Below, one piece after another: positions 18,405-60,117 of a stretch of DNA of 64,000 nucleotides. Origin of the DNA: Alligator mississippiensis (lineage: Eukaryota; Chordata; Crocodylia; Alligatoridae); NCBI RefSeq assembly GCF_030867095.1, contig NC_081824.1:85332382-85396381 (forward strand), written 5' to 3'. Position 1 is the stretch's first letter. Every line of letters begins with the position of its first letter. The translations under genes and the position numbers were made by a program. The notes below the pieces were generated by a model. That model did not search any database and had not been told where the DNA came from. It saw nothing but the letters and a program-made list of their open reading frames with translations.

Positions 18405-18960
18405 GGATCCCCCTGCACCAGCAAGTTGAAACCTGGCTGTCCACAATCATCTGATTGTCAGTAGGGACTGGAAACTAAACAAGGATCTGGAACTGGCCTC
18501 AGTCTAGTCCCTGGCCCCAGCTGACAATCAGTTGAACAACACACAGGGTTTTCACAGATCCCAGCACACAGGGACCCTGGGATCAGGCTGCTGCAATCTG
18601 AGTGTGTGGTCGTGGTATGCAGGCATGAGTAAAAACCATCCAGCTGGGCACCACACAGGGTTTCCACCAGTTCCAGTGCTTGGAGATCCCAAGATCGAGT
18701 TGCAGCTGCTCAATAAGTGAAAACCATGCATGATGCCCAGCACTGCAGCACAGGTTCTGGAGCATAGGGACTTGGGGATCAGGAAACCTCTCCCTAGTCC
18801 TGGGATTGGGTTGTGCTGGGTCCTTTAAAATTCTGTGTGTGCACCTGCACACATGGTTTTCTGATATCCCTAGTGCATGGGGACCTCAGAATCAGGGAAA
18901 GGCTCCTTGATCCTGGGATCCCCAAGAGCCAGGGAGGTCAGAAAACCATGTGTGCAATTG
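18405..18960. repeat. Degenerate tandem repeat
   Basis: Diverged units of roughly 100-150 bp share CACACAGGGTTTTCACAG, GATCCCAGCAC and GGGACCTTGGGATCAGG-like blocks; at least four can be followed (about 18535, 18650, 18760, 18850). In the USP45 intron 17242-20557. Confidence 0.6.
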
Positions 18961-27000: not shown

Positions 27001-27154
27001 TTTCTTTTTTCTTGCAGTTAAGACATAGGCCATTTTTAGAAGAAATACTTTGTTTTAAAAAGTGTATTCTATACTGCAATACAGTATATCAAGAGGGTAA
27101 AATGGCAATATTCTGTTTAGTCATATTTGAAGTAACATAGTTAGCTTCAAGTCA

Positions 27155-28695
27155 GCATGAACGGATAGAATCCATCGGAGAGTGCTGAAGGAGATGGCTG
27201 AGGCCATTGCGGAACCCCTGGCAAAGCTCTTTCAGAATTCGTGGTGCACAGGGGAAATCCCTGACGACTGGAAGAAAGCCAACATTGTGCTCATCTTCAA
27301 GAAGGGGAAGAGGGAGGACCCAAGCAACTATAGGCCAATCAGCCTAACCTCCATCCTAGCGGAAATCCTGGAAAAGCTCATTAAAGAATCTATGTGCGAT
27401 ACGCTCGCAGAAGGTAAGATTCTGAATGACAGCCAGCATGGCTTCGTCACAGGTAGGTCTTGTCTTACCAATCTCATCTCCTTCTACGATCAGGTTTCTC
27501 ACCACCCAGACACAGGAGACGTGGTAGATGTTATATACCTAGACTTCCAAAAGGCTTTTGATCTAGGATCCTACAATATCCTTGAGGGGAAACTGGAAGA
27601 TTGTAGGCTCAGCTGCCCAACAGTTCAGTGGGTGGGAAACTGGCTACAGCGTAGGACCCAGAAAGTTCTCATGAATGGATCTGTGCCATCCTGGTGCAAA
27701 GTGGCCAGTGGTGTCCCTCAAGTGTCCGTGCTTCGACCAGTGCTTTTCAACATCTTTATCAATGATTTGGATGGGGGAGTGAAAAGCTTGCTGGTCAAGT
27801 TTCCAGATGACACTAAGTTATGGGGCAGTGGTCACGTCAGAAGATAGGCTGCAGATACAGGTAGACCTGGACAGGCTCGAGACTTGGGCAGACCAGAACC
27901 AGATGAAGTTTAACACTTCCAAGTGTAAGGTGTTCCATCTGGGGGAAAACAACCCTCAACATACATACAAGCTTGGTGGTGACAGCTTGACTTGCACCAT
28001 TGCCGAAAGGGATCTAGGGGTAATGACTGATCTTTGTATGAATGTGAGCCGTCAGTGCAAGGTGGTGGTCAGCAGGGCAAACAACATGCTGGCATGCATC
28101 AACCGATGCAACTAGTGTAAAACTAAAGAAGTGATACTCCCGCTGTACTCAACACTGGTGAGACCACAGTTGGAGTACTGCATCCAGTTCTGGGCACTGC
28201 ACTTCAATAAGGATGTGGAAAAACTTGAGAGGGTCCAGAAAAGAGCAACCTGTATGATCAGGGACTTGCAAGGCAAGCCATACAAGGAGAGGCTGAGGGA
28301 CCTGGGCCTCTTTAGCCTAAAGAAGAGAAGGTGGAGAGAGGACTTGATAGCGGCTTCCCGCTATATCAGAGGAGTGCACCAGGAGCTCGGTGAACAAGTG
28401 TTCACTAGGGCACCCCTGGTAAGACCAGGACCAATGGATACAAGCTCCTGGAAAGCTGCTCCAGGCTTAATACCAGGAAAAACTCCTTCACAGTCGGGGT
28501 GTGCAAACTGTAGAATAAACTCCCTACAGAAGTGGTGCAGTCACCTACCCTGGAGGTTTTCAAGAAGAGACTAGACAGTCACCCTGCTGGGGTCACCTAA
28601 CCCCAGTTGATGTCCTCCTGTCTAGAGCGGGGGCAGGGGCTGGACCCGATGATCTGCAAGGTCCCTTCTAGCCCCTAACAATCTATGAATCTATA
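27155..28695 (+). mobile_element. CR1 LINE fragment, plus strand, 5'-truncated
   Basis: A 5'-truncated CR1 in the intron 26341-31900, antisense to USP45. It carries only the RT half of ORF2 and the 3' UTR, and ends at 28694 in ATCTATGAATCTAT. The RT spans three frames: [50 protein letters not shown], then [10 protein letters not shown], where the usual FADD is changed to FPDD. Frame changes occur near 27810 and 28115. The copy is decayed and non-functional. Confidence 0.93.
27182..28574 (+). pseudogene. Broken CR1 reverse transcriptase
   Basis: RT coding remnant in three overlapping frames: 27182-27847, 27807-28115 and 28131-28574. The first contains the finger and palm motifs up to the mutated FPDDTKLW, the second the LETWADQNQMKFNTSKCKVF thumb-proximal part, and the third the VILPLYSTLVRPQLEYCIQF segment typical of CR1. 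In-frame stops and indels separate them. QGSVLGP is changed to QVSVLRP, another sign of decay. Confidence 0.9.
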
Positions 28696-28934: not shown

Positions 28935-29262
28935 TATGGGATTTTTACACATGCTCTGGGAGGTGCCAGGGGGCACTTTAATTAGTGAGCTGCGCTAATT
29001 AAAAGCACTTGTGTATCATGTGTATCAGCATCTCCCGCGCTGAAAAATAGCAGCAGGGCACTTTGAACTGAAGCTCATTGAACGAACTTTAGTTCAAAGT
29101 GCCCCACTACCATTTTCAGTGCGCACATGCTGATACATGTGATGGCAGAGTCTACTGGAACGTTTTATTTCCATGGTCTAACAGACTTGCTTAATCAAGT
29201 CTGCTCCAACGTGCTGGATTTCCAGCACGTTGGAGCCGGCTCCCTGCATGTCTATAGGAGCT
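28935..29262. mobile_element. Palindrome-rich MITE
   Basis: Four nested or adjacent inverted repeats in about 330 bp: arms 29011-29069 against 29091-29148 (imperfect, with a perfect 14-bp core at 29056-29069/29091-29104), an 8-bp stem CAGACTTG/CAAGTCTG near 29183-29204, and a perfect 16-bp stem 29203-29218/29221-29236 with only TT between. No ORF. In the USP45 intron 26341-31900. Confidence 0.7.
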
Positions 29263-30574: not shown

Positions 30575-30889
30575 TACAGGTTTTCCTCGCCAACCAGAGT
30601 TCTGAGTATCCACAGTTAATATTCTGTATACTGTTTTGGTTACCACGGTATACAGTTTTGAGTAACCACCGTTTTCTGTGGCCACGCATCAGCCCACCAA
30701 CCCCCTGGCCCTGCTTGTGCCTCTCCTTCCCCCCCAACAGCCCCTGCTACCCCAGCCAGAGGTGGCCCCCAAGCTGTACCAAAGGTGTGTGCAGTGGCGG
30801 GGAGCTGCCCTACCTGCAGTGGCAAGGAACAGCAGGCCTGCTCACTGCTGTTCCCTGCTGCCCTCCTCCATGACCCAGTGTGGCAGGGA

Positions 30890-31094
30890 GCAGAGAAGCC
30901 ACGCGGGGATCTCTTCACTCACCGCTACTCACCCCATGCTGCCCTGGTGATGCGCTTCCTGTGCCTGCTGCTGATTTGAGGGGCGCAGCCCTGCACCACT
31001 GCCCTCAATGCAGCCCCGTGTGTAGGAGGCACATCGCCAGGGCAACGTGGGGCGAGCAGTGGTGGGTGAGGAGATCCCCGCACAGCTTCTCTGC
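30890..31094. repeat. Large internal palindrome: 71-bp arms, 63-bp loop
   Basis: The left arm 30890-30960 (GCAGAGAAGCCACGCGGGGA start) pairs with the right arm 31024-31094 (TCCCCGCACAGCTTCTCTGC end) with scattered mismatches. Weaker pairing extends outward to roughly 30822 and 31148. Confidence 0.85.
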
Positions 31095-31152
31095 TTCCTG
31101 CTGCACCAGGCCACGGGGGAGGGAAGCAGGGTGGCAAGGAACTGCAGCTCCG

Positions 31153-31992: not shown

Positions 31993-33006
31993 CTGAAAAA
32001 ACATTGCTTTTTTTAATGTGAAAAAACAAATCCAATGCCACTGTATAAGTACAACATAATAGTTTCTATGGTTTATTGTTAAAAAAACACAATGTATGAA
32101 TTACATACAAAACACATAATAACACTATTAATGTAATAAATCATTTACTGCTAATATGGCACACTTCGTAATATTTACAGAAGTTATTCAGTGATACAAT
32201 TCATTCAGTCTCTCCTTCTGCCCCTGCTGTATCAGAATAGTGCTGCATCTCTCAAGAGGAGGATTTAAACAAAAATTCTGATTTTCTTTTTAACAAAGAA
32301 TGCAAGTAATCAGCCTTATTTATTTAATATTCTGTTGTTCCAAAGCAGGGACTATAGCAGCAGACATACTGATATGTTTTCTAAATGATAGTTTCTAAAA
32401 CTGTCAAACTTGAAAGAATAACAAAAAAAATATTTATTTTGTTTTATGTTACATTTTCAAGAACAAGTTACAGATTTGGAAAAAGCTAATCTTTCAAACA
32501 AGCTTCAGTATGTTTGGGCTGTAAGACTAAAACTAATAAGCACGTGTAACAATGACTTATATAAATAAAAAGCTCAGATTTGGAAAATAATCTTGCCCTT
32601 ATTGCAAAAATCATTATACTGCTTTTGTGTTCATATTCTTAAAATGCTCAGGATGTCAATAATTCAATCAATGAAACATTCCAGGTGCTCTCTTTGAGTG
32701 ATACAATAGTTGCACAATACAAAAAGATCAGAAGATGCAAAAGAATATATTTCCAAAAGTAAAATTAAATTGTACATTCTTGAGCGATATTAGTAACAAA
32801 TGGAAGCAAGCCAATATATACAAGAATTTCTATATTTTATGTGTGCACTAGATGGCACTAGAATAATAGATAATATAATTTTACTTAAGCCACGCACAGT
32901 GCTCTAGAACTCCAGTTTGTAACAGACAGTCAATATTGAAAAAAATTACATTTGAACAATTGTACATGCTTTTTTTTTTTAAGTGATTCATTAGGAGGTA
33001 GCATAC

Positions 33007-33088
33007 CTTTGACTTTTCTTTTAGTTTCCTCATCTGCTGTTTTAGTGGTTGGATTATTGAATGCTTTTAAGATACCAGTTTGTATCCG
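33007..33088 (-). CDS. USP45: USP45 coding exon: linker before the fingers region
   Basis: An 82-bp exon encoding RIQTGILKAFNNPTTKTADE and then ETKRKVK, plus the first base of the next codon. The acceptor is TTTTAATAG|CGG and the donor AAAG|GTATGC. This matches the human USP45 segment that follows the EETK block. It lies at the far end of a 10-kb intron (33089-43113) that contains a CR1, a Tigger-like MITE and the CpG-rich hairpin block. The next intron is only about 1 kb. Confidence 0.92.
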
Positions 33089-38045: not shown

Positions 38046-41020
38046 TTCATAGATTTCATAGATTTCATAGACATTAGGGCTGGAAGGGACCTCGGAAGAT
38101 CATCGAGTCCAGCCCCCCGCCCAAAGGGCAGGACGTCAGCTGGGGTCATAGGATCCCAGCAAGATAAGCATCCAGTTTCATCTTGAAGGTGTTCAATGAA
38201 GGCGCTTGAACAACCTCCGGCGGCAGGCTGTTCCAGACCTTGGGGGCTCAGACAGTAAAGAAATTCTTCCTTATGTCCAGCCTGAAACAATCTTGTAGTA
38301 GTTTGTGACCATTCGTCCTCGTCATCCCTTGGGGCGCTCTGGTGAACAAACGTTCCCCTAGATGCTGGTGATCACCCCTGATAAACTTGTAGGTGGCCAT
38401 CAGATCACCCGAGCCTGCGCTTTTCCAGGCTAAAGAGCCCCAGGGCTCTCAGCCTGTCATCGTAGGGTCTGCTTCCCTGACCCCTGATCATGTGCGTGGC
38501 TCTTCTCTGGACTCTCTCAAGCTTCTCCACATCCTTTTTGAATTGTGGAGCCCAAAACTGGACGCAGTACTCCAGCTGCGGCCTCACTAAGGCCGAGTAC
38601 AGGGGGAGAATGACGTCCCGGGATTTGCTTGAGAAGCATCTATGGATGCAAGCCAGCATTTTGGTCGCTTTACTAGCCGCAGCATCGCATTGCAGGCTCA
38701 TGTTCATCTTGTGGTCAATGATGACCCCCAAGTCTCTTTCTTCCATAGTGCTAACCAACATAGCACTGCCGAGCCTATAAGGATGCTGCGGGGTTTTTTT
38801 CCCAAGGTGGAGAACCTTGCATTTATCGGCGTTGAACACCATCAGATTCTCATCCGCCCACTTGCTGAGCCTGTCCAGGTCAGCCTGGATCACCCGCCTG
38901 TCTTCTGGCATGGATGCTTTGCCCCAAAGTTTGGTGTCATCGGCGAACTTGGCCAGTCCGCTTCTGACTCCAGTGTCCACATCGTTAATGAAGATGTTGA
39001 ACAGTATGGGTCCAAGGACAGAGCCCTGGGGGACCCCACTGGTCACAGGACACCACGATGAGTGACTTCCATCAATGACTACCCTCTGGGTCCGACCCCG
39101 GAGCCAATTTTCCAGCCAGTGGATCGTGGGGGACCCAAGGCAACAATTGGCCAGTTTCTCCAAGAGACGATCATGGGACACCAGATCGAAGGCTTTTTTG
39201 AAGTCAAGATATATGACATCAATCTCATCTCCCTTGTCCAGGTGATAGGTCACCTGGTCGTAGAAGGAAATGAGATTGGTCAAGCAAGACCTACCCGCAA
39301 CAAACCTGTGCTGGCTATCCCTTAAGATGTTGGCGTCGGCCAGTCCATTAAGGATGGCCTCCTTAATAAACTTTTCTAAGATCTTCCCCGGGATAGAAGT
39401 CAGGCTGATGGGCCTATAGTTAGCTGGATCCACTTTCCTCCCTTTCTTGAAGATAGGCACCACGTTGGCCTTCTTCCAGTCTTCGGGCACTACACCAGAG
39501 TGCCAAGAGTTTTCAAAGATCCGCGCTAGAGGCTGGGCTATGATGCTCGCCAGCTCCTTGAGTACCCTGGGGTGAAGATTGTCAGGGCCGGCTGACTTGA
39601 AGGTATCCAGCTTCTCAAGATGTTCCTTCACAAAGTCAGCATTAATGGAGGGCAGGGGATCACCCTCACCCGGACTTCCCGGCCCTGTAGCAGGTACAGG
39701 CGTCCCATGGGGCTGATGAAAGACCGACGCAAAGTACCTATTTAATAGGTTGGCTTTTTCCTGGGCGTCAGTTGTCAGTTGCCCCATCTGGTTCAGCAGG
39801 GGTCCAACGTTGCCCCTGCTTTTCCTCCGGCTCCCCACGTATCTGAAAAAGGACTTTTTATTGTCCTTGATGCTCAAAGCTAGCTGGAGTTCAGTTGCAG
39901 CCTTGGCTTTCCTGGTCTGCTCCCTACAGGACCGGACCAGTGCAGAATAATCCTCCTTGGAGGTGACTCCCATCCTCCATCCTTTGTAGGCCTTTTTTTT
40001 TAGCCTCAGGAGGTCTGCTAGGTCCCTGGAGAGCCAGGGGGGCTGCTGTGCCCTCTTGCTGCCTTTCCTCCGAGATGGAATAGACTTAGTTTGTGCATTG
40101 AGGATCGCTCCCTTGAGGAGCAACCACTCTTCTTGAACTCCCCTCTCCCTGCGGTCACAGTCCCTTAGGGCCTCACTGACAAGCCTCCTGAGCTTGTCAA
40201 AGTCGGCTTTCCTGAAGTCAAGGACTTGCGTGTTGCTGACCGACTTGCCAGCTTTTCGGCGGATGGTGAAGGTGATCAGCTCGTGGTCGCTGTCACCCAG
40301 CTTCCCATCGATCACTAGGTCGTCGACTAGGTCCTCCCCAGTAGCCAGCACCAGGTCGAGCAGCGCTTTGCCTCTCGTTGGCCCATAGACTTCTTGAGCC
40401 AGGTAGAGGTCATCCACGCACGAGAGGAAGCTCTGCGACCGCTCAGATTTTGCTGAGCGATCCTCCCACGAGATGTCTGGGTAATTGAAGTCACCCATGA
40501 CAACCATGGTCCTGGAGCAAGCTGCCTCAGCCAGTTCCTGGGCAAACTCCTGGTCTAGCTCAGGACTTTGGGTGGGAGGTCTGTAATAGACTCCCACCAT
40601 TGTGTCCCCTGTGCCGTGTTCCCCACAGATTTTAACCCAGAGGGTCTCCAGCCGTCCACCCTGGTCGCCAATATCGGCTTGCAGGGGCGCATAGCTTTCC
40701 TTAACATAGAGAGCTACACCCCCGCCCCTTTTCTCTACACGATCCCTCCTGTACAGGGTATAGCCATCTATCCCCGTGGTCCAGTCATGGGTGGAGTCCC
40801 ACCAGGTCTCCGTGATCCCTATGACATCGTAACTGTTTGCACTGAGCAGGAGGATGAGCTCCTCCTGCTTATTCCCCAAGCTCCTGGCATTTGTGTACAG
40901 GCAGGCAAGCGCCCCCTGGGGGGCTCCTTCCTTGCCCACAGATTTTACCAGGGCTGGGGCTGGGGCGGGCTCCCTTGAGTGCCATGATCCGCTGGCTTTG
41001 CAAGGAAACAACCCTTCAAT
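38046..41020 (-). mobile_element. CR1 LINE, minus strand, long endonuclease-RT ORF
   Basis: A CR1-type non-LTR retrotransposon inserted in the 10-kb USP45 intron in the same orientation as the gene. The 3' end at 38046-38075 is a run of TCTATGAAA-like units. The 5' end lies just past the start of ORF2, so ORF1 is lost. The element is flanked at 41086 by an unrelated Tigger-like MITE. Its length and long open frame suggest a fairly young copy. Confidence 0.93.
38405..41011 (-). CDS. CR1 ORF2: AP endonuclease plus reverse transcriptase (frameshifted near C-terminus)
   Basis: An 868-codon open frame. The endonuclease comes first (roughly residues 40-240), with LYTNARSLGNKQEEL, ITETWWDS, VMGDFNYPDISW and GDSDHELITF carrying the usual APE catalytic residues. 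The reverse transcriptase follows (roughly 470-740) with [46 protein letters not shown] (motif A Asp), [18 protein letters not shown] (motif B) and [10 protein letters not shown] (motif C). One change stands out: QHRFVAGRS, where the usual residue is Gly (QHGF). The frame ends at LFSLEKRRLG then a stop, from an indel near 38405. The normal C-terminal region continues in another frame to about 38100, so the copy is probably inactive. Confidence 0.93.
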   Translation of the reverse strand: MFPCKASGSWHSREPAPAPALVKSVGKEGAPQGALACLYTNARSLGNKQEELILLLSANSYDVIGITETWWDSTHDWTTGIDGYTLYRRDRVEKRGGGVALYVKESYAPLQADIGDQGGRLETLWVKICGEHGTGDTMVGVYYRPPTQSPELDQEFAQELAEAACSRTMVVMGDFNYPDISWEDRSAKSERSQSFLSCVDDLYLAQEVYGPTRGKALLDLVLATGEDLVDDLVIDGKLGDSDHELITFTIRRKAGKSVSNTQVLDFRKADFDKLRRLVSEALRDCDRRERGVQEEWLLLKGAILNAQTKSIPSRRKGSKRAQQPPWLSRDLADLLRLKKKAYKGWRMGVTSKEDYSALVRSCREQTRKAKAATELQLALSIKDNKKSFFRYVGSRRKSRGNVGPLLNQMGQLTTDAQEKANLLNRYFASVFHQPHGTPVPATGPGSPGEGDPLPSINADFVKEHLEKLDTFKSAGPDNLHPRVLKELASIIAQPLARIFENSWHSGVVPEDWKKANVVPIFKKGRKVDPANYRPISLTSIPGKILEKFIKEAILNGLADANILRDSQHRFVAGRSCLTNLISFYDQVTYHLDKGDEIDVIYLDFKKAFDLVSHDRLLEKLANCCLGSPTIHWLENWLRGRTQRVVIDGSHSSWCPVTSGVPQGSVLGPILFNIFINDVDTGVRSGLAKFADDTKLWGKASMPEDRRVIQADLDRLSKWADENLMVFNADKCKVLHLGKKTPQHPYRLGSAMLVSTMEERDLGVIIDHKMNMSLQCDAAASKATKMLACIHRCFSSKSRDVILPLYSALVRPQLEYCVQFWAPQFKKDVEKLERVQRRATHMIRGQGSRPYDDRLRALGLFSLEKRRLG

Positions 41021-41085
41021 AATTAGATACTATACACTGAGAAGTATAACAAATTTATACATTTTCTATGTATAGAATCTAATTA

Positions 41086-41579
41086 CAGGTTTCCCTCACT
41101 TTATGCGGGTTCCGTATGTGCGAATTTGTTCTTATATGATGACCCTTTTTATACCAAAAATTCGTTATATGCAAGATAAATTCAATCTTATGTGATCGAT
41201 GTGGCGGAACCCTGTGGTCAGCTGCTTTGTGCAGTGCATTGTGGGAGTGATGCGCACCAAAATATCGTCTTCTGTTTGGATCTGTGCTCCCGCTTGTTGT
41301 CTGCGACACGTGTTTCTGTAGTTGCCATCCTCATTATGATAGTGCCTTGTGTTTGTGTGTACTGTCTGCTGTTGGCGAGTACCAAAATTGTCTTGTAAAA
41401 GTGGTAGAAATGGGTCTAGGAATCAGTACCAGTCAAGGTACTGTATCAGTATCAGTATCAGTCAAGGTCTTGGAATGTATCCCTATTTGTTACATTGTAA
41501 AGTGGGTTCCCTTTATGCGAATTTGAGTTATGGGCTGTTTTCCAGGAACACATGTACAGCATAAAGAAGGGGAAACCTG
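41086..41579. mobile_element. Tigger/pogo-like MITE, copy 1 (494 bp)
   Basis: Terminal inverted repeats of about 21 bp: CAGGTTTCCCTCACTTTATGC at the left and the matching GCATAAAGAAGGGGAAACCTG at the right. TA dinucleotides flank both ends (41084-41085 and 41580-41581), the target duplication of Tc1/mariner/pogo transposons. No transposase frame is present. Compared with copy 2 at 50037, it has an internal TATCAG expansion at about 41437-41463. Confidence 0.88.
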
Positions 41580-41714
41580 TACAAGGGGAGTTGTCTTAAA
41601 TTCAGGGCCATCAAGGATTCAGATAAATATGGTAATACATGTCTCAGATGGCCAAAGCCGACTAGAGGTGATTCAATAATTACTCGTTTGTCGGGGCGGG
41701 CTGGTGAATAGAGA

Positions 41715-42214
41715 GGCCGAGAAAGCTTTATGGTTGTAAAACTTTACTTACGTCGCTTGCTGTTGCGACGAAAATGGTCCGGTCGTCTGAACAACTACAT
41801 TAGTTGTTCCAGCTGGCAGGGCTCAGGCCAGCACGTCCGTCTACAAATCGGGCCGGCAGGGAAAAGGATACGTCTGGGATTGCGCTCGGCGACAGGGAGA
41901 AGAATCGATAGGTGATCAGTCTATCGATTAGCTCAGCCACAAGTCAGATCTCTTCAGAAGCACTCTGCAGCGTGCTTAAAGTTCTCCGACTTGGTCGCGC
42001 GAAATTTTAAACGGCTAGCCAGCCAATTACTAGCCGCCACGTGTGCATAATTTAGAGCTGGCCAATAGCGGGACACAAATTTACATTCGAATAGCGGGAA
42101 CTCTCTTGCACCGGGGGTTTTCTGCAGCAACAGAAAACCTCTTACTTTGCAAGAGGCTCTCATGTGGCGGGAAAACTCCACCATGCCGAGGCACCAAAAT
42201 CACTGGGTTGTGAC
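41715..42214. other. CpG-rich hairpin block flanked by 8-bp direct repeats; origin unknown
   Basis: A 500-bp block with many more CG dinucleotides than the surrounding intron. AATAGAGA flanks it exactly (41707-41714 and 42215-42222). It holds a series of perfect short stems: 41789-41797/41801-41809, 41903-41911/41921-41929, 42012-42018/42030-42036, 42116-42124/42131-42139 and 42103-42110/42148-42155. CCAAT motifs (42023 and 42062) and three E2F-like sites (41997-42004, 42094-42100, 42166-42175) are present, with a GC box just outside at 41694. The minus strand begins TGTCACAACC as an LTR might, but no matching CA end is seen. A solo LTR or a non-autonomous transposon are both possible. Confidence 0.5.
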
Positions 42215-42220
42215 AATAGA

Positions 42221-42291
42221 GATGTGATTTACCATTATATATAAGAAATGCAAATATTCCTTAGCTATAATGGTAAATCAGTGATAACATC
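42221..42291. repeat. Inverted repeat with perfect 14-bp arms
   Basis: GATTTACCATTATA at 42226-42239 pairs exactly with TATAATGGTAAATC at 42266-42279, and GATGT/ACATC pairs further out. It is immediately next to the hairpin block. Confidence 0.85.
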
Positions 42292-43113: not shown

Positions 43114-43201
43114 CTTTGTTTCTTCTGTTCTCATTGCATCCAACAAGTAGTGGAGAAGCTCTTGGCTATCCTGCTGTTGGAAACCCTTAAACCGAGGGGC
43201 C
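43114..43201 (-). CDS. USP45: USP45 coding exon (first visible): QQQDSQELL motif
   Basis: An 88-bp exon. Its first base completes a codon begun in an upstream exon; 29 codons follow, starting [20 protein letters not shown] and ending EETK. The acceptor is TTTTTTCATAG and the donor is AAG|GTAAAA. The QQQDSQELL stretch is the conserved USP block after the catalytic Cys box that helps shape the active site. The exon starts in phase 2 (two bases upstream, one here), so its true upstream neighbour must end with two bases of a codon. I found no such exon between 43202 and 64000. Confidence 0.93.
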
Positions 43202-43567
43202 CTATGAAAAAAGTAGAAGTTTAAAATGACTTTACTACTACTAAAAGGCAGCTGTATGCTACTGATGAGCTAGCTTAGGAATGTCAGTCACCAACTCGGA
43301 GCGCACCCACATCTGATATTATATTATTTAATTTACTACACACCACTTTATTCCATTTCTGAAAAAAATATTAACATTAAATATATAACATTAAATTACT
43401 GAAAGTCAGGAGGATCCAAATGTATTTCTAAACCATATGAAGATCAGTAAAATGGTGGAAAAAAAAATCAAATGCTTTCAGGGACATTCTTTTGTGGATA
43501 CCAGGACCACTAGATTTGGTCATCTACATGGTCATTTAAGTCTCCAGAGTGCCACTTACACACAGGA

Positions 43568-45186: not shown

Positions 45187-45693
45187 AGGTCCCCAGAACA
45201 GCTGGGAGGAGACTGCATGGCAGGGGCCTCTGTTCTACCCCCTGCCCAACTGCCTGATGGCTGCAGGCAGGAGCCATGGCTCACAGCTGGGCTGTCCACC
45301 ACACCAGAAACTGGGGGCAGGGGAGCAGAGTCCCCACTGCGCAGACCTGGCCCAGAGCCAGTGGGGGGACTGCACAGCAGGCGACTCTGTTCCCCTTGCT
45401 CCCACAACTGCCTGATAACTGCAGCCAGGAGCTGCAGCTCAAAGCTGAGCTGTCTGCCACGCTGAGAACCGGGGGCAGAGTGGGGAGCAGAGCCCTCATT
45501 GCACAGACCCAGCCTGGCCTTCTCGGACCCAAGCCAGCAAGCTCCGTTCCCCCACCCCTTGCCCCCAGTTCCCAGTGTGGTTGACAGACCAGCTCCGAGC
45601 CACGGCTCCTGCCTGCAGCTGTCAGGCAGCTGGGTGGGGGGGTGTAGAATGGAGGCCCCTGCCAGCTGTTCTGGCTGGATCTGGGGGGACCGG
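45187..45693. repeat. GC-rich inverted plus direct repeat array
   Basis: The left arm 45187-45322 and right arm 45556-45693 are inverted copies sharing, for example, CCAGAACAGCTGG and GGCTGCAGGCAGGAGCCATG. Between them lies a second direct copy of the left unit, offset about 157 bp (CTCTGTTCC..., AACTGCCTGATAACTGCAGC). It belongs to a GC-rich block at 45100-46100. Overlapping ORFs on both strands are a result of composition and repeat structure. Confidence 0.8.
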
Positions 45694-50034: not shown

Positions 50035-50036
50035 TA

Positions 50037-50506
50037 CAGGTTTCCCTCACTTTATGCAGGTTCTGTATGTATGAATTTGCTCTCATGAGATGACCTTTTT
50101 TATACCAAAAATCCGTTATATGTGAGATAAATTCCCTCTTATGCGATAGGTGTGGTAGAAGCCTGTAGTCAGCTGCCTTGTGCGGTGCATTGTGGGAGTG
50201 ATGCACACCAAAAAATAATCTGTGTGGATCTGTGCTCCTCACTCATTGTCTGTGACACGTGTTTCTGTAGTTTTCATCCCCATTATGGTAACATTCACCA
50301 CCACCCTGTCCTTAAGTGTACTGTCTGCTGTTGGTAAGTACCAAAATTGTCTTGTAAAAGTGGTAGAAATGGATCTGGGAGTCAGTACAGTCAAGGTCTT
50401 GGAACGTATCCCTATTTGTTACATTGTAAAATGGGTTCCCTTTATGCGAATTCGAGTTATGCGCTGTTTTCCAGGAATGCATGTAGCATAAAGCGAGGGA
50501 AACCTG
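50037..50506. mobile_element. Tigger/pogo-like MITE, copy 2 (470 bp)
   Basis: Same family and same orientation as 41086-41579: it begins CAGGTTTCCCTCACTTTATG, ends GCATAAAGCGAGGGAAACCTG, and is flanked by TA at 50035-50036 and 50507-50508. The internal sequence aligns over nearly the whole length, with mostly substitutions. No coding capacity. Confidence 0.88.
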
Positions 50507-50508
50507 TA

Positions 50509-55209: not shown

Positions 55210-55898
55210 TAGGGGTATGTGAAATAAGCCGTATTCGATTTAGATTCGGCCCAAATCAGGGACAGTGATTTGATTCGTTGATTCGGATCACTGTCCCCAA
55301 TTAGATTCGGCCAAATCCAAATCTGGAGATTCGATGCTGATTAGGAGAATCAGATTCAGCCATAGACACAGCTTTAAATGTTTTTTCTACATACCTCGAG
55401 GTACCAGGTGCAGCTCGTGAACGCTGAGATGCTGGGGCGGATGGAGCATCCCACAGGAGTGCGGGTGTCCCCCCCAGACCCAGAAGGCACCAGTTGCCAA
55501 GCAGGAGGGGTGCAGGGGTGCCCCCCTATGCGCTCCTCGGCAGAGCTGGAAGTGGACTGGAAGTGCTTCTGATCCACTTCTGGGTCTGCTGCCGAGCGTG
55601 CTGGGACGCTCCTGTGGGACACTCCCCCATGCTCCTGTGGGACACTCCATCCACCCCACCATCTCAGCATTCACGAGCCACCTAATAACTTGAGGTATCT
55701 AGAAAAAACATTTAAAGCTGTGTCTATATCTGAATCACCGAATCTTTCTGAATCTCTCCGAATCGATTTGGAGGGTTCCGATTCAATTCACAAAGATTAA
55801 AGGGTCTCTTGATTCGATTCAGATTTGGAGACTTGGCCACTGACTTGGGCTGAATCTCTGCTGAATCGAATCAGGGACTGAAGCTTCGCACAGCTCTA
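55210..55898. mobile_element. hAT-like element with perfect 8-bp duplication and long inverted interior (689 bp)
   Basis: CTGTCCAC is repeated exactly at 55202-55209 and 55899-55906. The outer thirds are rich in GATTCG/CGAATC motifs. Two arms, about 55351-55465 and 55625-55735, are inverted copies sharing GACACAGCTTTAAATGTTTT and TCGTGAACGCTGAGATG-like blocks. No transposase frame. Confidence 0.85.
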
Positions 55899-58774: not shown

Positions 58775-60117
58775 TTTGAAAAACAGGGTCTTTGAAAAAA
58801 TTATCAAGGCTCGCATATGTGAGAGCCCGGCAGGACAAATTATGCTGAGGGGAAACCAGCACGGGTTTGTGGCAGGCAGATCGTGCCTGACCAATCTAGT
58901 TTCTTTTTATGACCAGGTTATGAAATGCCTGGACACAGGAGGAGGGGTGGATGTCGTATACTTAGACTTCAGGAAGGCCTTCGATACGGTATCCCACCCC
59001 ATACTGGTGAACAAGTTAAGAGGCTGTGACTTAGATGACTACACAGTCTGGTGGATGGCGAATTGGCTGGAGGGTCGCACCCAGAGAGTCGTGGTGGATG
59101 GGTCGGCTTCGACCTGGAAGGGTGTGGGCAGTGGGGTCCCACAGGGCTCGGTCCTTGGACCGATACTCTTCAATGTCTTCATCAGTGACTTGGATGAGGG
59201 AGCCAAATGTACTCTGTCAAGTTTGCAGATGACACAAAGCTATGGGGAGAAGTGGACACGCCGGACGGCAGGGAACAGCTGCAAGCAGACCTGGACAGGT
59301 TAGACAAGTGGGCAGAAAACAACAGGATGCAGTTCAACAAGGAGAAATGCAAAGTGCTGCACCTAGGGAGGAAAAATGTCCAGCACAACTACAGCCTAGG
59401 GAATGACCTGCTGGGTGGCACGGAAGTGGAAAGGGATCTTGGAGTCCTAGTGGACTCCAAGATGAACATGAGTCGGTAGTGTGACGAAGCCATCAGAAAA
59501 GCCAATGGCACTTTATCGTGCATCAGCAGATGCATGATGAATAGGTCCAAAGAGGTGATACTTCCCCTCTATCGGGCGCTGGTCAGACCGCAGTTGGAGT
59601 ACTGCGTGCAATTCTGGGTGCCGCAATTCAAGAGGGATGTGGATAACCTGGAGAGGGTCCAGAGAAGGGCCACTCGTATGGTTAAGGGCCTGCAGACCAA
59701 GCCCTACGACGAGAGACTAGAGAAACTGGACCTTTTCAGCCTCCGCAAGAGAAGGTTGAGAGGCGACCTTGTGGCTGCCTATAAATTCATCACGGAGGCA
59801 CAGAAGGGAATTGGTGAGGATTTATTCACCAAGGCGCCCCCAGGGGTTACAAGAAATAATGGCCACAAACTAGCAGAGAGCAGATTTAGATTGGACATTA
59901 GGAGGAACTTCTTCACAGTTCAAGTGGCCAAGGTCTGGAACGGGCTCCCAAGGGAGGTGGTGCTCTCCCCTACCCTGAGGGTCTTCAAGAGGAAGTTAGA
60001 TAACCATCTAGCTGGGGTCATCTAGACCCAGCACTCTTTCCTGCCTATGCAGGGGGTCAGACTCGATGATCTATTGAAGTCCCTTCCGACCCTAACATCT
60101 ATGAATCTATGAATCTA
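58775..60117 (+). mobile_element. CR1 LINE fragment, plus strand, 5'-truncated
   Basis: A third CR1, truncated inside the RT at about 58775 and ending at 60117 in TCTATGAATCTATGAATCTA. It is better preserved than the 27-kb copy; the 3' UTR contains the diagnostic GACTCGATGATCTATTGAAG. The RT reads through [20 protein letters not shown] and [16 protein letters not shown], then shifts frame near 59215. The next frame carries [12 protein letters not shown]. Confidence 0.94.
58776..60025 (+). pseudogene. Broken CR1 reverse transcriptase and C-terminal region
   Basis: Three pieces: 58776 to about 59215 (RT motifs A and B, ending near [16 protein letters not shown]), 59207-59479 (FADD motif C and thumb, closed by a stop after MNMSR), and 59534-60025 (C-terminal region starting MMNRSKEVILPLYRALVRPQ and ending KLDNHLAGVI). 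The stop near 59479 and the frame change near 59215 inactivate it. The full C-terminal region seen here shows what the 38-kb copy lost from its main frame. Confidence 0.9.

Follow-up and report, generated by a model that had tools for sequence, protein, structure and literature searches.

An LTR is both the promoter and the terminator of its element. Among the systems with which the locus described here can be compared, Ty3/gypsy elements make 5-bp target duplications; ERV3 lineages of the mammalian-like kind have a dUTPase downstream of the integrase, and the primer binding site (PBS) of ERV3/ERV-L elements (class III) is of the leucine type. ERV4, as described by Chong et al. (2014, PMC4299795), is found in crocodilians and turtles (CrocERV groups, including the former CERV2), makes 5-bp duplications, has no zinc finger, GPF/Y motif or dUTPase, and carries a relatively intact env; the same paper reports that some ERV3 lineages are env-less, and its table lists both ERV3 and ERV4 without a gag zinc finger and without GPY/F.

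The window, i.e. the whole stretch of 64,000 nucleotides that was analysed (C1:85332382-85396381 of the Alligator mississippiensis genome), contains a CpG-rich block with a chain of hairpins. An initial annotation had seen in it a young solo LTR, a non-autonomous transposon of an undescribed type or a cell-cycle-responsive regulatory element. We conclude, with a probability of about 0.96, that this block represents a solo LTR from an LTR retroelement with many copies in the alligator genome. The own-genome search for many copies with different flanks, proposed along with that annotation, was decisive for the transposable origin: in 2.35 Gb of sequence (195 contigs), 39 other places matched the block at 93–95% identity (the best 40 of 3797 first-look candidates were scored; as these were the best-scoring candidates, the sample may lean to young copies).

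Aligned with their flanks, the copies have common ends; 35 of 41 rows begin and stop at the same bases (41640 and 42215 of the window, query positions 1–576 exactly), five of the remaining six rows are short by 1–2 bases and one, L003, by 27. The analysis covered 40 unique LTRs (L005 duplicates an LTR of L010). Thirteen of these were solo, with host DNA on both sides; 26 bordered a PBS (14 LTRs, with at most 4 mismatches in 17) or a PPT (12 LTRs, with at most 3 mismatches in 10); L003 was the only truncated one. Exact 5-bp duplications flanked 11 of the 13 solo LTRs, with one mismatch in the window copy and in L006. As to proviral pairs, the second LTR could be measured in 17 of the 22 tried (four were without any, one had a fragment only); in the printed flanks of these 17 pairs there were 11 exact 5-bp duplications and five with one mismatch, while L017 had no recognisable duplication. 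Thus, the family has dispersed copies with common ends, 5-bp duplications and a definite orientation, and the solo LTR option of the initial annotation is borne out.

No second LTR was found within the 64-kb window, and the interior of L010 had no match in the window; hence the locus holds no interior sequence. The search of the own genome for a paralogous empty site returned none; the flank matched old diverged repeats only, one of which reaches the insertion join, weakly. From ~42236–42248 on, the flank is itself an old diverged repeat with 13 other matches at 74–85%. The block had no match in phage and plasmid collections, and the IMG/VR pattern scan gave 0 matches.

When a USP16 protein was used as a tblastn query, ubiquitin-protease exons were located on the minus strand, among them one at 43120–43203 (E 5e-8) and, weakly, one at 32939–33088 (E 0.003). 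The two are adjacent in the protein, and from paralogue differences we take the host gene to be USP45-like. The block is situated in the intron that separates these two exons, at a distance of 0.9 kb from an exon, a position that eliminates a host-gene promoter or first exon. The sense of the LTR, judged by the PBS and PPT sides in full-length copies, is minus, the same as that of the surrounding gene. The block is, then, an ordinary mobile-DNA relic in an intron: an old solo LTR in the sense orientation of its USP45-like host gene. A copy of ~6.5 kb would have inserted into this intron, creating the 5-bp target duplication, and LTR–LTR recombination would then have deleted the interior, leaving one LTR. 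Coordinates of its features are given in Table 1.

Table 1. Features of the solo LTR and of its immediate borders (window positions; copy numbers refer to the 40 unique LTRs)
Feature	Position	Strand	Remarks
Solo LTR, 576 bp, TGTC...GACA	41640..42215	-	exact ends in 35/41 alignment rows, same genome
LTR ends: 5′ end TGTCACAACC; 3′ end ...GAGACA	42215; 41640	-	minus-strand sense
Left target-site duplication ATACA	41635..41639		one mismatch to right copy
Right target-site duplication ATAGA	42216..42220		one mismatch to left copy ATACA
CATAAAG, possible variant poly(A) signal	41726..41732	-	39/40 copies; putative function
GTAAGTAAAG, splice-donor-like (GTAAGT)	41742..41751	-	35/40 copies; putative
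Hairpin, 6-bp stem	41751..41770		all pairs kept (G-U allowed) in 26/40
Hairpin, 9-bp stem	41789..41809		perfect stem confirmed; all pairs kept (G-U allowed) in 38/40
Hairpin, 6-bp stem	41812..41832		all pairs kept (G-U allowed) in 38/40
Hairpin, 9-bp stem	41903..41929		perfect stem confirmed; all pairs kept (G-U allowed) in 36/40
Hairpin, 6-bp stem	41958..41977		all pairs kept (G-U allowed) in 31/40
TTTAAAA, TATA-like box	42005..42011	-	40/40 copies; putative function
Hairpin, 7-bp stem	42012..42036		all pairs kept (G-U allowed) in 28/40
Two inverted CCAAT boxes, probable promoter part of U3	42022..42066	-	ATTGGC at 42061-42066 and 42022-42027, 40/40 copies
Outer 8-bp stem around 42116-42139	42103..42155		perfect stem confirmed; all pairs kept (G-U allowed) in 36/40
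Hairpin, 9-bp stem, within 42103-42155 stem	42116..42139		perfect stem confirmed; all pairs kept (G-U allowed) in 24/40
Alternative 6-bp hairpin, rare in family	42138..42156		all pairs kept in 5/40 only

Repeats of other kinds surround the block. To the left of it there is a Tigger-like element at 41086–41579 (plus strand; CAGG...CCTG, flanked by TA on either side), which shares about 80% identity with a second Tigger-like copy at ~50036–50508 (plus strand). A CR1 LINE occupies 38405–41029 on the minus strand, with a frame open over 874 aa; related CR1 stretches are present at 27142–28694 and 58848–60117. Five self-reverse-complement stretches of 110–470 bp, large palindromic elements, were seen at 30853–31131, 55353–55736, 45218–45664, 29015–29143 and 18846–18956. 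An exact 11-bp direct repeat, TTCAATAATTA, was read by eye at 41015–41025 and 41672–41682; as its second copy is inside the LTR, the repeat is probably due to chance.

The four full-length copies (L009–L012) are ~6.5 kb long: LTRs of ~583 bp and an interior of 5380–5398 bp. In the sense direction the interior starts with TGGCGACGAGGATGGGAT in three of them (L012 differs by one base), which we take to fit a serine-tRNA primer site, and ends with a PPT, AAGGGGGCA. All four copies have interrupted reading frames. Among selected ORFs of these copies, Pfam detected RVT_1 and rve above the cut-off and, weakly and below the cut-off, RVP; no dUTPase was found in the ORF pieces scanned. P0001 shows RNase H and HHCC residues, although RNase H is absent from the Pfam output; the gag-like frame, at most 525 aa long, matches no family. 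In the parent family, paired LTRs thus enclose RT and integrase coding along with PBS-like and PPT sequences. No env was detected: ~500 bp lie between the long pol frame and the 3′ LTR, and the one ORF scanned there matched no family. The three sense frames of the four copies showed no CCHC pattern in gag, and the P0001 pol frame had no in-frame GPY/F (the GTF at residue 693 does not qualify); an out-of-frame GPF is present in L009, L010 and L012.

The protein database search scored only those candidates that had exact words in common with the query; in it, a predicted pol protein of Alligator mississippiensis (NCBI) matched at 92%, and all matches at 57% or more came from A. mississippiensis or A. 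sinensis. Throughout this pol lineage (L010:4275-5975, P0001–P0007, P0021–P0025) close database relatives are all from Alligator, with 57–94% identity over the matched part. Beyond these came gypsy-type proteins: P0008–P0010 at 33–41% (integrase), P0020 at 48% across 44% of the integrase piece, and weaker plant ones. Repbase or Dfam may already list the family.

Most likely, the parent family is an ERV3/ERV4-like endogenous retrovirus without detectable env, a kinship that we infer from shared traits and scores, not from a tree. A profile search of RT–RNase H against PDB gave the highest scores, 59–63 bits, to chains named by depositors Pr125Pol and Peptidase A9/RT/RNase H, presumably those of foamy virus; 4ol8, which we take to be Ty3, followed with 49.3 bits and Ty3 7q5b with 45.6 bits. 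Scores of the single-sequence RT search were close together (34–35 bits for foamy virus, ~31 bits for MLV), and PFV integrase was first among the matches to integrases of solved structure. With ERV3/ERV-L the family shares 5-bp duplications, the lack of a zinc finger, a foamy-like pol (by score) and, as reported for some ERV3 lineages, the lack of env; unlike ERV3/ERV-L, it has no dUTPase found downstream of the integrase, and its putative PBS would be serine-tRNA-like, not leucine. The traits listed above for ERV4 recur in it as well: 5-bp duplications, no gag zinc finger (CCHC), no in-frame GPF/Y and no dUTPase found, in a crocodilian host and with the order protease–RT–RNase H–integrase; however, env, a common rather than a defining trait of ERV4 and described there as relatively intact, is where the two part.

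We consider it less likely that the parent was a Ty3/gypsy retrotransposon and not an endogenous retrovirus; in that case, too, a solo LTR is what the block would be. Such a parent would agree with the gag–pol order, with the undetected env, with the integrase similarity to P0008–P0010 and P0020 and with the presence of Ty3 among the PDB profile matches; the 5-bp duplications fit it too. However, the RT–RNase H profile scores Ty3 below foamy virus, PFV leads the solved integrases, and a gag without CCHC together with the lack of in-frame GPY/F is the combination tabulated for ERV3/ERV4 in the comparison of Chong et al. (PMC4299795).

CG dinucleotides are indeed kept at a level unlike that of the rest of the intron, as had been noticed from the start: positions 41001–42000 contain 38 CpG (o/e 0.80), while o/e is <0.35 in most other 1-kb tiles of the window and 0.40–0.49 in a few (at ~31, 38–41, 55 and 59 kb). 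In all 40 LTR copies, however, CpG o/e is 0.84–1.08, and the window copy retains 32 of the 42 majority CpG sites, the other copies retaining 27–40. Retention in the window copy being within the family range, its CpG richness is inherited and needs no local protection; with LTR copies elsewhere equally CpG-rich, local protection was rejected. In the compared columns of the Tigger-like pair, the copy near the block has 13 CpG, the other one 9, with 3 shared, numbers too small to bear on the question.

The word ‘young’ is doubtful. The window copy differs from the others by 5.0% on average, and the others differ among themselves by 4.9% (2.6–2.8% outside CpG); the 17 LTR pairs differ by 2.2–5.2%, with a median JC distance of 0.037 (0.016 outside CpG). 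At 3.9e-10 per site per year, a rate that its authors call rough where they give it (PMC4299795), the LTR pairs would be 29–68 My old by all sites and 5–39 My old by sites outside CpG.

The motifs named in the initial annotation were also recovered: CCAAT, read as ATTGGC on the minus strand, occurs twice, and the window copy has three E2F-like TCCCGC half sites. TCCCGC is present in 40 of 40 copies and the E-box CACGTG in 35 of 40; AATAAA is present in none of the 40. The two CCAAT boxes are probably part of a promoter in U3. In the predicted minus-strand layout, U3 would run from 42215 and include the CCAAT boxes, the E2F-like half sites and TTTAAAA, with a start expected at ~41975–41985. The CpG density, the CCAAT and E2F-like motifs and the hairpins are features of the element's own putative promoter and leader, not of the host gene.

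The perfect stems reported for the block, including the nested one, are where they had been placed. The 14-bp flanking stem (42226–42279) exists as well, but it is a 15-bp one (42225–42280) and is outside the element. A 56-bp near-palindrome with 25-nt arms (88%) spans 42225–42280, just outside the LTR. The count of hairpins is above that in shuffled sequence: perfect stems of at least 8 bp (loop 3–60) number 5 in 41695–42291 versus a mean of 0.37 after dinucleotide shuffling, with 0 of 300 shuffles reaching 5. Yet real DNA of the window is richer in stems than its shuffles; by the same count real 597-bp tiles average 1.39, and 2 of 107 reach 5. Stems of at least 6 bp (loop 3–14) in 41715–42214 number 8 versus 1.19 in shuffles (0 of 500 reach 8), the 127 real 500-bp tiles having a mean of 2.8 and a maximum of 7. 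RNA folding of 41715–42214 gave z of -3.9 for the minus strand and -2.6 for the plus strand; the two parts of this segment folded separately, minus strand, were weaker (z -1.3 and -2.0).

Hairpin richness is a trait of the family. The 40 copies have on average 5.45 stems of at least 6 bp versus 1.32 in shuffles, 31 of the 40 exceed all 20 of their own shuffles, and the window copy with 8 stems is at the top of the family range of 3–8. Outside CpG, stem columns are more variable than other columns (0.020 versus 0.012), so that selection to preserve the stems once inserted is not apparent. Of the eight short hairpins, five follow the expected start; PMC2664473 describes stem-loops in this part of other retroviral LTRs, in R or U5 of the beta-, gamma- and lentivirus-like ones. 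One could speculate that the chain of hairpins across U3, R and U5 (3–8 stems per copy) worked as an RNA/DNA structural program in an env-less ERV4-like lineage, a suggestion that we regard as quite improbable. A known structured RNA is out: the Rfam search (E up to 5) yielded five matches, all far below gathering scores.

The 8-bp repeat AATAGAGA, taken initially for the border of the block, is exact, at 41707–41714 and 42215–42222. As a border or a target duplication it fails: identical 8-mer pairs 300–700 bp apart number 877 in the window, the left AATAGAGA is inside the LTR and the right one starts on the LTR's last base, so neither copy marks an end of the element. First guesses at LTR ends, made from TG/CA with 4–5-bp duplications, had produced three candidates, about as many as estimated for chance, and none of them was the true end. 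A TIR-type transposon was looked for too, but the surroundings of the block yielded no convincing terminal inverted repeat accompanied by a duplication. It is this repeat and the hairpins that an undescribed type of non-autonomous DNA transposon making 8-bp duplications could appeal to; against it stand the shared ends of the alignment rows, which refute it, the 5-bp duplications of the copies, and the full-length members, in which RT and integrase coding lies between paired LTRs; the chance of such an element being present is minute.

Hardly more credible is a cell-cycle-responsive regulatory element or an orphan CpG island of the host gene. A CpG o/e near 1 and the CCAAT, E2F-like and E-box motifs would suit it, but dispersed copies have the same CpG density and the same motifs, beyond which nothing points to such a function; the full E2F-like TTTCGCGCG occurs in 6 of 40 copies only, the window copy among them, and the intronic position at 0.9 kb from an exon, the element ends and the near-exact duplication speak against it. 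Later co-option of the window LTR by the host may have occurred.

A candidate ‘mystery regulatory island’ is thereby removed. With the slow substitution of crocodilians, an LTR that is maybe tens of My old still keeps most of its CpGs, and an old solo LTR therefore resembles a young insertion or a CpG island; reptile windows with such CpG-rich old LTRs can mislead the eye. The many-copy family itself, env-less and ERV4-like, would be a modest addition to catalogues of crocodilian endogenous retroviruses.
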